A DNA stretch of 46,038 bases from Acidobacteriota bacterium (lineage in GTDB: Bacteria > Actinomycetota > Acidimicrobiia > Acidimicrobiales > CADCSY01): positions 1 to 46,038 of the forward strand of contig JAEKLB010000045.1 in the NCBI GenBank assembly GCA_019510095.1. Direction: 5' to 3'. Positions 2,124-25,227 of the stretch are shown here, piece after piece. The notes below the pieces were generated by a model that was not told the DNA's origin, ran no database searches, and worked only from the letters and a program-made list of their open reading frames with translations. The position numbers and the translations under genes are program-made. Each line of letters begins with the position of its first letter. The stretch's first letter is position 1.

Positions 2124-4096
2124 TGACCGATGGGGACGCGACTGGCGCTGCGATCGACGTGTTCGGGCTCGAGGACCGGACGTTCCCGCCGCCCGCCCTG
2201 CTCGCGGCGGCCGCCAACGTTCGGGACCTCTCGCTGTACGAGGAGGCCGAGCGGGACCCCGAGGCGTTCTGGGCGAGGCAGGCCCGCGAGCTCGTGACGT
2301 GGCAGCGCGACTTCGACACCGTGCTCGAGTGGGACCTGCCGTTCGCCAAGTGGTTCGTCGGGGGCCAGCTCAACATCAGTGAGAACTGCCTCGACCGGCA
2401 CGTCGCCGCCGGGCGCGGCGACCGGGTCGCCTTCCACTGGGAGGGGGAGCCGGGCGATACCCGAACCATCACCTACGCCGAGCTTCTCGCCGACGTGCAG
2501 CGGTTCGCCAACGTGCTGAAGGGGTTGGGGGTCGAGAAGGGTGACCGCGTCAACATCTACATGCCGATGATCCCGGAGCTGCCGGTCGCCATGCTCGCCT
2601 GCGCCCGCATCGGCGCCCCGCACTCCGTCGTCTTTGGCGGGTTCTCGGCCGAGTCCCTGTCGGACCGCATCAACGATGCCGAGGCCAAGGTCCTGGTGAC
2701 CGCCGACGGCGGCTATCGCCGCGGTGCGCCGGCGAACCTCAAGGGCAGTGCCGACGCCGCCTGTGCGAGCAGCCCGTCGATCGAGCACGTCGTGGTGGTG
2801 CGCCGCACCGGTGAGGCGGTGACCATGCTCGAGGGCAGGGATCACTGGTGGCACGACCTGATGGGCGCGGCCGGGCCGACGTGCCCGCCGGAGCCGCTCG
2901 ACAGCGAGCACCTCCTGTACCTGCTCTACACGTCGGGCACCACGGCCAAGCCCAAGGGAATCATGCACACGACGGGCGGCTACCTCACCCAGGTCGCCTT
3001 CACCCACAAGAACGTCTTCGACCTCCACGATGGCGACGTCTACTGGTGCGCGGCCGACATCGGCTGGGTCACGGGGCACAGCTACATCGTCTATGGGCCC
3101 TTGGCCAACGGCGCCACGTCGGTGCTGTACGAGGGCACGCCCGACACTCCTGGGCGCGACCGCTGGTGGGACATCATCGAGCGCTACAAGGTCAGCATCC
3201 TCTATTGCGCGCCGACAGCCATTCGGACGTTCATGAAGTGGGGAACCGCCGAGCCCGGCAAGCACGACCTCTCGTCGCTGCGGGTGCTCGGCTCGGTCGG
3301 TGAGCCCATCAACCCCGAAGCCTGGATGTGGTACCGGGAGCACATCGGCGGTGACCAGTGCCCGATCGTCGACACGTGGTGGCAGACCGAGACAGGCGGC
3401 ATCATGATCAGCCCCCTTCCGGGCGTGACGACCACCAAGCCCGGTTCCGCGACGTTCCCACTGCCCGGCATCGGAGCCGAGGTCGTCGATGACGCCGGGA
3501 AGGCTGTCGACCGGGGCTCTGGTGGCTACCTGACCCTGACCCGGCCATGGCCCGGGATGCTGCGCGGCATCTACGGCGATCCCGATCGCTACCGCGAGAC
3601 GTACTGGAGTCGCTTCCCGGGGCGGTACTTCGCCGGCGACGGGGCCAAGCTCGACGACGACGGTTACCTGTGGCTGCTGGGCCGGGTCGACGACGTCATG
3701 AACGTCTCCGGGCACCGCATCTCGACGACCGAGGTGGAGTCAGCCCTCGTCGACCATCAAGAGGTCGCTGAAGCCGCGGTCGTCGGCGCCAAGGACGAGA
3801 CCACCGGTCAGGCCATCGTCGCCTTCGTCACCGTCAAGGGTGGCGTTGCCACCACTCGGGAGCTGGGCGAGGAGCTTCGTCACCACGTCGCCCACAAGAT
3901 CGGCCCGACGGCCCGCCCGAAGACGGTGATCTTCACCGACGACCTCCCCAAGACCCGAAGCGGCAAGATCATGCGCCGGCTCCTGCGCGACGTCGCCGAG
4001 GGCCGTGACCTCGGCGACACCACCACCCTGGCCGACCCGGCCGTCGTCGAGGAGATCCGCCGCCGGGCGGAGGCCGCCCCGCAAGACGAATCGTGA
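2123..4096 (+). CDS. acsA: Acetyl-CoA synthetase (AMP-forming)
   Basis: A 657-residue acyl-adenylate-forming enzyme that activates acetate with ATP and CoA to acetyl-CoA, AMP and PPi in the cytoplasm. Diagnostic segments are the ATP loop [38 protein letters not shown], and the C-terminal [14 protein letters not shown] with the lysine that is acetylated in known Acs enzymes. Length is normal for the family. ATG 2123 is preferred. A GTG at 2096 in frame would add nine residues, but it lies inside the palindrome without a ribosome binding site, whereas a promoter at 2086-2115 would start transcription at the ATG. The stop codon overlaps the next gene's GTG start (GTGA), marking the start of a tight operon. 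Confidence 0.95.
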
Positions 4097-4584
4097 GGAC
4101 GCTCCACCACTGGCGATGGCGGGCCGAGCCGATCGACGGCGGAGAGGCCGTCGTCTTCGACCTCGACGGCGTGCTCTCCGACGCCACCGAGCGCCAACAC
4201 CTCCTCGACGACCGCCGTCCTGGGCGGTGGCAGCGGTTCTTCGCCGAGGCCGGCAACGACTCCCTGATCGAGGAGCTGGCTCGTCTCACCGAGCTGATCG
4301 ATCCGGCCATGGTCCTGGTGCTCCTGACGGCCCGCCCCACGACGATCCGCGACATCACGGTCGAGTGGCTCGAGCGTCATGGCCTGCGCTGGGACCTGCT
4401 GGTGATGCGACCGGAAGGTGACTACATGCCGTCGCCGGACGCCAAGCGCATGGCAGTGCACGAGCTCCGCAACCATGGCTTCGACCTGCGCCTCGCCATC
4501 GACGACGACCGGCGAAACGTCGACATGTTCCATCGTGAAGGCATCCCATGCATCTACATACATTCGGGGTACTACGAGGCCTGA
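4093..4584 (+). CDS. Small HAD-superfamily phosphatase
   Basis: A 163-residue haloacid dehalogenase-type hydrolase. Motif I is [12 protein letters not shown], with D23 as the likely nucleophile and D25 as the acid/base. Motif II is LLTARP, and the metal-binding end is [13 protein letters not shown]. It is short, with little room for a cap domain, and resembles the polynucleotide 3'-phosphatase-like branch; the substrate cannot be read from the sequence. The GTG start overlaps the acs stop codon, and the gene is followed after 21 bases by the ornithine cyclodeaminase-like gene, so it is almost certainly cotranscribed with both. Confidence 0.8.
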
Positions 4585-4605: not shown

Positions 4606-5814
4606 ATGGCGACTGAGCGGATCGAGATCGAGGGCCACATCATCGACTCGCTCATCCTGGCCAAGGTGCTCGACCTCATCGTGGCGGCCGGCGCCGACTA
4701 CCAAGTGGTGGCGGTCGACATCGGCCGCACCCAGAACGACCCGAGTCGAGTGGTGCTCGACGTCAGCGCCCTCGACGACGACTCCCTCTCGGCCCTGCTC
4801 GAGACCGTCCAGGTGCACGGAGCCAACCGACTGGCCGAGCGCGACGCCGTCCTGGTGGCCTGCGATCGCGACGGCGTACTGCCCGAGGGCTTCTACTCGA
4901 CGACCAACCTCCCGACGTCGGTTCGCCTCGATGGGCGCTGGCATCCGGTGGTCAATCCCGAGATGGACTGTGGCCTGATCGCCGGAGGCGACGAGGTCCG
5001 CACCGTCCCCATGCACCGGGTGCGGGCGGGTGATGAGGTCGTCGTGGGCTACGGCGGTGTGCGGGTGGAGGCGCCCTCGAAGGCGCGTGGTGTCACGTTC
5101 GAGTTCATGTCGTCCGAAGTCTCCTCGGAGAAGCCCAAGGCGCTGCTCGTCAGTCAGGTCGCCGATCGGCTTCGGGCTGCTCGAGCGCAGGGGACGAAGA
5201 TCCTGGTGGTTGCCGGGCCTGCCGTGGTCCACACCGGCGCCGCGCCGCCGCTGGCGACGTTGGTACGGGAGGGCTGGGTCGACCTCCTGTTCGCGGGCAA
5301 CGGCTTCGCCACCCACGACATGGAGTCCAACGTGCTGGGCACCTCGCTCGGCGTGTCGATCGACGCCGGCCTTCCGATCGAACACGGCCACAGCAACCAC
5401 CTGCGTGTCATCAACGAGATCAGGCGGCGGGGCTCGATCGCCCAGGCAGTCGCCGACGGCTACGTGACCGGCGGCGTGATGTACGAGTGCGTCCGGCGCG
5501 GTCTCCCGTTCGTGCTCGGCGGGTCCGTCCGTGACGACGGGCCGTTGCCGGACGTCTACGCCGACGTGGTGGCCGCGGTCGACGCCATGCGAGAGAACAT
5601 CGCCGGTGTCGGTGTCGCCTTGATGCTGGCGTCGACCCTGCATGCCATCGCCACCGGGAACATCCTTCCCGCTGGTGTCGAGACGTTCTGCGTCGACATC
5701 AACCAGGCAGTCGTGACCAAGCTCGCCGACCGGGGGAGCCACCAGGCGCTTGGCATCGTCACCGACGTCGGTCTCTTCGTCCGGGACCTCACCGAGCAGC
5801 TCTGCCCGCGGTGA
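4606..5814 (+). CDS. LOR/SDH-domain protein, probable ornithine cyclodeaminase (TIGR00300-like)
   Basis: A 402-residue protein matching the LOR/SDH bifunctional/TIGR00300 group. It has an N-terminal approximately 100-residue LOR/SDH domain, a middle part with PEMDCGLIAG, and a C-terminal NAD-binding half with ILVVAGPAVVHTGAA, LLFAGNGFATHDME and INEIRRRGSI. The archaeal members, and the C-terminal part of the cyanobacterial enzyme AgrE, convert ornithine to proline and ammonium using NAD. Its stop codon overlaps the start of the gene encoding the partner guanidino hydrolase. These are the two halves of the AgrE/ArgZ fusion, encoded here separately and in reverse order. Function is inferred from family and context. 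Confidence 0.82.
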   Translation: MATERIEIEGHIIDSLILAKVLDLIVAAGADYQVVAVDIGRTQNDPSRVVLDVSALDDDSLSALLETVQVHGANRLAERDAVLVACDRDGVLPEGFYSTTNLPTSVRLDGRWHPVVNPEMDCGLIAGGDEVRTVPMHRVRAGDEVVVGYGGVRVEAPSKARGVTFEFMSSEVSSEKPKALLVSQVADRLRAARAQGTKILVVAGPAVVHTGAAPPLATLVREGWVDLLFAGNGFATHDMESNVLGTSLGVSIDAGLPIEHGHSNHLRVINEIRRRGSIAQAVADGYVTGGVMYECVRRGLPFVLGGSVRDDGPLPDVYADVVAAVDAMRENIAGVGVALMLASTLHAIATGNILPAGVETFCVDINQAVVTKLADRGSHQALGIVTDVGLFVRDLTEQLCPR

Positions 5815-6653
5815 GCCTCTCGTGGGGCCGGCGCTATCTGATGTGCCCGCCCTCGTTCTTCGGCGTGGTCTACGAGATCAACCCGTGGATGCACCGCGAG
5901 GTGACCGTCGACGTCGACCTCGCCATGGAGCAGTGGCAGCACCTCGTCGACGTCATCGGCGCGGCCGGTGCCCAGGTCGACCTGCTCGAATCGGAGCCGG
6001 GCTTGCCCGATCTCGTGTTCACCGCCAACGCCGGCGTGGTGAGCGGCGATCTGTTCGTCCCGGCGCGCTTCCGTCATGCCGAGCGCCGAGGCGAGACGCC
6101 CTTCGACGTCGCCTGGTTCGTGGCCCATGGCTGGCGGGTCGAGGAGCTGCCAGCAGAGGTCGATCACGAGGGCGCCGGTGACACGCTTCCCTTCGGTGCC
6201 GTGTTCGTGTCCGGGTACCGCTGGCGCAGCGACGCCCGCTCGCATGCCGCCGTCGCGAGCCTCACCGGGACACCGGTCCGGTCGGTCGAGCTCACCGATC
6301 CACGGCTGTACCACCTCGATCTGACCTTCTGCCCGCTCGACGATCGCCGCGCGTTGTGCGCGCCGGACGCGTGGGACGACTACGGGACCAAGGTGGTGAA
6401 GGAGCTCGTACCCGAGCCACTCGTGCTCGAGCTCGACGAGGCCCTGTCGTTCGTCGCCAACTCGGTGGTCATCGACCGGACCATGCTCATGCCGGCGTGC
6501 CCGCCTCGGGTCGGGCGTCAACTCGAAGCATGGGGCTTCGACATCGAGGTTGTCGCGCTGTCCGAGTTCATGAAGGCAGGCGGTGGACCGCGGTGCCTCA
6601 CCCTCGCGCTCGATGTCGGCTCCCGACTCCTCGATCAGCCCGAGCAGCAGTAG
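5811..6653 (+). CDS. Amidinotransferase-fold guanidino hydrolase, probable arginine dihydrolase
   Basis: A 280-residue member of the guanidine-modifying (DDAH/arginine deiminase-like) superfamily. Visible features are LMCPPSFF, YEINPWM (N24), LPDLVFTANAGVV (N73), a histidine in LYHLDLTFCPL, and the probable nucleophile Cys262 in KAGGGPRCLTLALD. N24 and N73 fall where cyanobacterial ArgZ/AgrE enzymes have asparagines linked to arginine dihydrolase activity (arginine to ornithine, two ammonium and CO2). A plain dimethylarginine hydrolase is the alternative. GTG 5811 overlaps the preceding stop codon, and htpX begins 10 bases after this stop. With its upstream neighbour it could make an arginine-to-proline nitrogen-release route. 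Confidence 0.8.
   Translation: MSLSWGRRYLMCPPSFFGVVYEINPWMHREVTVDVDLAMEQWQHLVDVIGAAGAQVDLLESEPGLPDLVFTANAGVVSGDLFVPARFRHAERRGETPFDVAWFVAHGWRVEELPAEVDHEGAGDTLPFGAVFVSGYRWRSDARSHAAVASLTGTPVRSVELTDPRLYHLDLTFCPLDDRRALCAPDAWDDYGTKVVKELVPEPLVLELDEALSFVANSVVIDRTMLMPACPPRVGRQLEAWGFDIEVVALSEFMKAGGGPRCLTLALDVGSRLLDQPEQQ

Positions 6654-17782: not shown

Positions 17783-25227
<7,445 letters not shown>

Follow-up and report, generated by a model that had tools for sequence, protein, structure and literature searches.

Separate, overlapping genes for an AgrE/ArgZ-type cyclodeaminase and hydrolase: a probable two-protein route from arginine to proline

The bifunctional cyanobacterial enzyme AgrE/ArgZ (Alr4995, Sll1336) unites two catalytic parts in a single chain: in the PDB entry 6juy, the hydrolase occupies residues 8-271 and is followed by the LOR/SDH part at residues 289-694. 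A passage of PMC8262935 describes AgrE as converting arginine to ornithine and ornithine to proline, with one CO2 and three NH4+ being freed. Here, we analyse two overlapping genes in a stretch of 46,038 nucleotides of contig JAEKLB010000045.1 (assembly GCA_019510095.1), hereafter the window, which encode counterparts of the two parts as separate proteins, with a gene order opposite to that of the domains in the fused chain. We consider it likely that this presumably coupled gene pair is a two-protein version of AgrE/ArgZ, which would convert arginine to proline, CO2 and three NH4+, with nickel-pincer nucleotide (NPN) as the most likely cofactor. A literature search covering titles and passages found no paper that describes such a split pair; the present analysis adds a survey of the pair, residue controls and the evidence from the lar genes.

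The gene pair and its fused cyanobacterial counterpart

The upstream gene of the pair (positions 4606-5814, forward strand, ATG start) is an open reading frame (ORF) of 402 amino acids for an LOR/SDH-type ornithine cyclodeaminase, protein 1. It passes the curated cut-off of the family TIGR00300 (471.5 versus 410.8 bits, profile positions 1-404 of 407) and carries, in order and over nearly its whole length, all three Pfam domains, PF04455 (residues 4-101), PF21571 (103-182) and PF21570 (184-395), the latter two being ArgZ C-terminal domains. A phmmer search matched protein 1 to the Alr4995 structures 6lrh and 6lrf over residues 5-399 (8.3e-101). No match to PF02423, the family of the classical ornithine cyclodeaminase and mu-crystallin, was obtained across the whole genome, and protein 1 is, judged by homology, no relative of that classical enzyme. 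TIGR00300 presumably also includes the archaeal enzyme MMP_1218. Conversion of ornithine to proline by MMP_1218 is described in a passage of PMC10809761.

The downstream gene (5811-6653, forward strand, GTG start, 280 amino acids) encodes protein 2, an ArgZ-type guanidino hydrolase and probable arginine dihydrolase. In a PDB search, it matched the hydrolase parts of Sll1336 (6jv0, 1.1e-55) and Alr4995 (6lrf, 1.7e-55), and dimethylargininases (DDAHs) at only 1e-8 to 2e-7. Residues N24, N73, H168, D170 and C262 of protein 2 align with their equivalents in both cyanobacterial proteins. Thus placed by the alignment are N24 (codon at 5880-5882), which corresponds to the asparagine in the INPWM motif of ArgZ, N73 (6027-6029), which corresponds to the Sll1336 asparagine that appears as serine in PDB 6juz, the HxD motif H168-L169-D170 (6312-6320) with the histidine base, and the catalytic cysteine C262 (6594-6596), all encoded on the forward strand.

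The two genes share the forward-strand bases 5811-5814, gtga, so that the GTG start of the hydrolase gene lies within the TGA-stop end of the cyclodeaminase gene; this overlap suggests translational coupling. These results bear out an earlier note on the same DNA, which had recognized an LOR/SDH protein followed by an arginine-dihydrolase-like hydrolase with N24, N73 and Cys262, all three numbered correctly, had placed the hydrolase N-terminally and the LOR/SDH part C-terminally in AgrE/ArgZ, had described the window genes as unfused, in the opposite order and overlapping by the four bases GTGA, and had proposed to confirm the asparagines by aligning the hydrolase with ArgZ.

The window pair and AgrE/ArgZ have in common both catalytic parts and the active-site residues compared, at 45% (LOR/SDH) and 41% (hydrolase) identity to Alr4995, and probably also the two-step reaction; they differ in that AgrE/ArgZ is one chain, whereas the window encodes two proteins in reversed order. 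The profile of the bifunctional enzyme, NF052231, with a cut-off of 1025 bits, is matched by the two ORFs separately (401.5 and 229.2 bits), in reversed order and with a TGA between them. On these comparisons, the pair is most likely a two-gene variant of AgrE/ArgZ. Chance is excluded as the origin of the pairing, because the homology spans the full length of the proteins and the same gene pair recurs in other genomes.

Recurrence of the pair across phyla

The survey comprised a class sample of 198 genomes, a phylum sample of 296 genomes and a scan of a genome collection, in which at least 565 TIGR00300 relatives were confirmed and the best 80, all from outside the cyanobacteria, were analysed; hydrolases beside TIGR00300 were sought at E 1e-8 within the available stretch of each locus. 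TIGR00300 was present in 8 of the 198 class genomes, with the hydrolase gene directly downstream in seven of the eight, and the same-order pair was also found in three further phylum genomes (G203, G231 and G217). A hydrolase gene accompanied TIGR00300 in 23 of the best 80 genome-collection loci, always directly downstream and on the same strand. Altogether, 30 loci with both genes, the window not counted, were classified (23 from the genome collection and 7 from the class sample, two of these from G079), and in all 30 the cyclodeaminase gene precedes the hydrolase gene on the same strand; with starts chosen nearest to the homology, a 4-base overlap is found in seven. The two stretches of G079 that carry the pair (L016 on C45 and L023 on C9, with overlaps of 4 and 8 bases) are both broken off at contig ends, and perhaps represent two copies.

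No fused or hydrolase-first case was encountered among these 30 non-cyanobacterial loci. The reversed, unfused arrangement is a recurrent form of a known enzyme pair and not an oddity; a one-off rearrangement was rejected in view of the identical order in the other loci. The comparison of fused and split forms envisaged in that note can now be given for the split pair, which occurs in six phyla, Actinomycetota, Planctomycetota, Omnitrophota, Nitrospirota, Methylomirabilota and Myxococcota; the fused proteins seen were the two cyanobacterial ones in the PDB, the survey itself being one of genomes other than cyanobacterial.

In a tree of 89 cyclodeaminases, the window protein belongs to a set of 18 rows with a support of 100/100, and 16 of these 18 have the hydrolase. 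The single fused row is placed with uncertainty owing to its long branch. None of the six archaeal rows has an adjacent hydrolase, in which respect these members of TIGR00300 differ from the window gene, paired with one. Two cyclodeaminases of the window's clade, L021 (G059:C13, 2795-4018) and L029 (3682-4887), also stand without an adjacent hydrolase. The divergence of the two proteins is correlated: for 29 pairs (the window, the fused Alr4995 and 27 loci, the incomplete L016, L023 and L079 being excluded), the Mantel correlation between cyclodeaminase and hydrolase distances is 0.862, and none of 2000 permutations gave a value as high.

The same survey holds observations that weigh against a joint pathway. 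As many as 57 of the best 80 TIGR00300 loci were without a hydrolase in the available stretch, which in 4 of the 57 (L049, L080, L093 and L098) ended less than 1000 bases past TIGR00300, and the TIGR00300-positive class genome G059 gave no match to a hydrolase of the NF045659 type (discussed below) anywhere in the genome; the cyclodeaminase, therefore, does not need a hydrolase partner. In addition, four genomes carry a hydrolase 54-58% identical to that of the window or of a near relative and have no TIGR00300 (L128/G433, L129/G452, L130/G423 and L132/G346). Alternatively, TIGR00300 might serve proline biosynthesis from biosynthetic ornithine, the hydrolase being coincidental or only occasionally useful. 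The hydrolase-less loci, six archaeal ones included, agree with this explanation, as does the proposal, in a passage of PMC10809761, that a related methanogen enzyme completes a proline route. However, biosynthesis as the sole role is hard to reconcile with the overlap of the genes, with their constant order in all other loci that have both, with the correlated divergence of their products and with the existence of the fused form in cyanobacteria, and we regard it as improbable.

The surroundings of the genes were scanned in part. Ten proteins from the neighbourhood of hydrolase-less TIGR00300 loci of the Frankiales/Nocardioides type included an alpha/beta hydrolase, an acyltransferase, ROK and ArsA, five of the ten were without any match, and no link to arginine was found among them. 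Seven ORFs near NF045659-type hydrolases and their relatives yielded an amino-acid permease (L141) and otherwise nothing on arginine. Cyanophycin synthetase, a conceivable pointer to the source of arginine, scored above cut-off in 1 of 34 chosen genomes, and that genome is not the window's. Within the window, an HAD/PNKP-phosphatase-like gene (4093-4584) ends 21 bases ahead of the pair; it was rejected as a member of the unit, since five relatives have another conserved ORF family upstream, the single scanned representative of which is an AI-2E transporter.

Substrate of the hydrolase

The active-site residues of protein 2 are conserved throughout an alignment of 63 hydrolase rows, which comprise the window, two cyanobacterial stretches and loci from the genome collection (23), the class (7) and the phylum (30); some rows repeat the window or G079, and those of L016, L079 and L133 are incomplete. 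All 63 rows, repeats and incomplete ones counted, have N24 and N73; H168 and D170 are found in all 61 rows that reach those positions, and C262 in 60 of 60. We take these ArgZ asparagines to be the residues that set dihydrolase against deiminase activity. As residue controls, we used six hand-picked, weaker DDAH-like or deiminase-like matches from the phylum search. DDAHs (NF045660, NF045658) and arginine deiminases (ADIs) resemble protein 2 in belonging to the superfamily of guanidino-group modifying enzymes with Cys/His catalysis, but none of the six controls has either N24 or N73, aspartate occupying position 73 in all of them, and five read HLK where protein 2, like the sixth, reads HLD. 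Three controls were scanned against NCBIfam: L135, one of the five with HLK, exceeds the cut-off of the DDAH family NF045660, L138 has its best score, below cut-off, with the DDAH family NF045658, and L134 exceeds none.

The family profiles, taken at face value, count against an arginine substrate. Protein 2 remains below every NCBIfam cut-off listed, and its best score, 234.2 bits against a cut-off of 300, is with NF045659, dimethylargininase of the M. tuberculosis type; the score with NF052231 given above is just under it, and that with the arginine dihydrolase family NF052232 is 226.3 bits, short of a cut-off of 450 which, we guess, was chosen with close homologues of the cyanobacterial domain in mind. 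The sole Pfam match is PF19420, DDAH_eukar, at 28.5 bits, above the gathering cut-off of 23, over residues 35-263. Both matches would suit a hydrolase that is a DDAH, or an enzyme acting on another guanidino compound, with the pairing reflecting a different pathway. The weak PF19420 match, in our assessment, assigns protein 2 to the superfamily and leaves its substrate unsettled.

As regards NF045659, the family is found above cut-off in 21 of the 296 phylum genomes (24 matches), and all 21 members examined of these 24 (L104-L124) themselves carry both ArgZ asparagines as well as HLD and the catalytic cysteine. Passages of PMC4569260 assign to M. tuberculosis Rv2323c a role in arginine use, report that it is needed for growth on arginine and state that its annotation as dimethylargininase rested on homology, no functional study having been made by then. 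Because the members of NF045659 show the ArgZ residues and Rv2323c was annotated by homology, the dimethylargininase name is weak evidence against an arginine substrate of protein 2, and the family name may be wrong. Protein 2 is thus like NF045659 in its best score and in these shared residues, and unlike it in falling below the cut-off and in being accompanied by TIGR00300, which is present in 0 of the 21 genomes that hold an NF045659 member above cut-off.

The residue two positions past the catalytic histidine points away from DDAH as well: a passage of PMC11659421 that compares two ADIs with two DDAHs gives aspartate for the former and lysine for the latter, and protein 2 has D170 in place of that lysine. 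Given this rule, and given that the controls, which are without the asparagines, mostly read HLK whereas protein 2 reads HLD, the sequence of protein 2 speaks against dimethylarginine as the substrate. The DDAH candidate was rejected on these residue controls; its product, moreover, would be citrulline, which is not the substrate of the neighbouring enzyme, and we hold this explanation to be very improbable. A plain ADI that yields citrulline, with the ornithine for the cyclodeaminase coming from elsewhere, would share the superfamily and the Cys/His/Asp machinery, and gains some room from the fact that the role of the asparagines is our assumption, but it stands only a slight chance in view of the deiminase-like control L134, which has A and D at the positions of N24 and N73, the lack of an arcA match in NCBIfam at E 0.001, the lack of any ADI among the PDB matches of protein 2 and a product that would not feed the overlapping gene.

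Nickel-pincer nucleotide and the proposed pathway

In NCBIfam (June 2026), TIGR00300 bears the name ‘ornithine cyclodeaminase, nickel-pincer nucleotide-dependent’, which is the only direct statement of NPN dependence that we found; a literature search found, among the titles and abstracts listed, no publication dealing with an ornithine cyclodeaminase that depends on NPN. According to passages of PMC11796402, about 15% of genomes contain larB, larE and larC without larA, the LarB, LarE and LarC proteins of Synechocystis sustain NPN synthesis in E. coli, and the cyanobacterial client protein of NPN had yet to be identified.

The distribution of the lar genes fits such a dependence. The window genome (G000) encodes, above the respective cut-offs, LarC (C151:49866-50360), LarB (C151:50596-51198) and LarE (C29:19841-20605). 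Of the 198 class genomes, 37 have LarC, namely 8 of the 8 with TIGR00300 and 29 of the 190 without it (Fisher p = 7.6e-7, with genomes treated as independent, which they are not); outside the window's order, the counts are 2 of 2 versus 1 of 145 (p = 2.8e-4). LarB and LarE are likewise above cut-off in all eight TIGR00300 genomes of the class. From the 80 genome-collection genomes, 50 were hand-chosen to span groups and tested for LarC and LarA: LarC is present in 44 of them (the others being G469, G474, G476, G487, G502 and G503), LarA (PF09861) scores at or above its cut-off in 23, and 24 of the 44 LarC genomes are without LarA above cut-off. Among 14 named control genomes, TIGR00300 was found in M. 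jannaschii and H. volcanii, both of which have LarC but lack LarA. Most telling is G004, which alone among the 37 LarC-positive class genomes has no LarA match. On its contig C17, larE (22863-23630), larB (24028-24648), TIGR00300 (24843-26033) and the hydrolase gene form a one-strand row; this cluster (L020, 6771-11078) provides independent support for the use of NPN by TIGR00300.

Other results detract from this association. Within the window's order, it is weak (LarC in 6 of 6 versus 28 of 45 genomes, p = 0.07), and a search of 88 loci at E 1e-8 with queries from the window's class located lar genes adjacent to TIGR00300 in just one. The window genome has a LarA-type protein of its own (PF09861, C226:992-1564), so that NPN need not serve the cyclodeaminase alone, LarA being a possible second client. 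Furthermore, LarC occurs without LarA and without TIGR00300 in two of the named control genomes, those of S. elongatus and C. glutamicum, and NPN must, therefore, have yet other users or uses. With these results included, NPN dependence of protein 1 is, in our view, most likely and agrees with the distribution of LarC, LarB and LarE. The earlier note had assumed NAD chemistry and proposed an assay with NAD; such an assay is probably incomplete, considering the NCBIfam name and the lar distribution. Its interpretation of the genes as an arginine-to-proline pair that would release three ammonium ions is well backed by homology, active-site residues and conserved pairing.

The proposed pathway would start with protein 2. 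By analogy with the superfamily, C262 would attack the guanidino carbon, H168 together with E120 would act as the base, and D67 and D170 would hold the guanidino group, while N24 and N73 may permit a second hydrolysis, so that arginine would yield ornithine, CO2 and two NH4+. Protein 1 would then convert ornithine to proline and NH4+, most likely with NPN supplied by LarB, LarE and LarC, and translation coupled through the overlap would keep the amounts of the two proteins matched. The net reaction would turn arginine into proline, CO2 and three NH4+, with neither urea nor citrulline being formed. A wider proposal, which we judge equally apt to hold or to fail, is that the pair constitutes an NPN-dependent arginine-to-proline pathway in which TIGR00300 is one of the non-LarA users of NPN for which a search began after cyanobacteria had proved able to make NPN without LarA, and that every hydrolase with N24, N73 and HxD, NF045659 included, is an arginine dihydrolase feeding TIGR00300 or other ornithine enzymes.

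If the proposed pathway is correct, Acidimicrobiia-type Actinomycetota, together with some members of the Planctomycetota, Omnitrophota, Nitrospirota, Methylomirabilota and Myxococcota, would possess, in the form of a simple pair of genes, the urea- and citrulline-free route from arginine to proline known from cyanobacteria. Being small and separate, the two proteins may lend themselves to assay more readily than the fused enzyme does, and so allow NPN dependence to be tested cleanly. By the same token, the dimethylargininase label carried by the relatives of NF045659 should then be re-examined.

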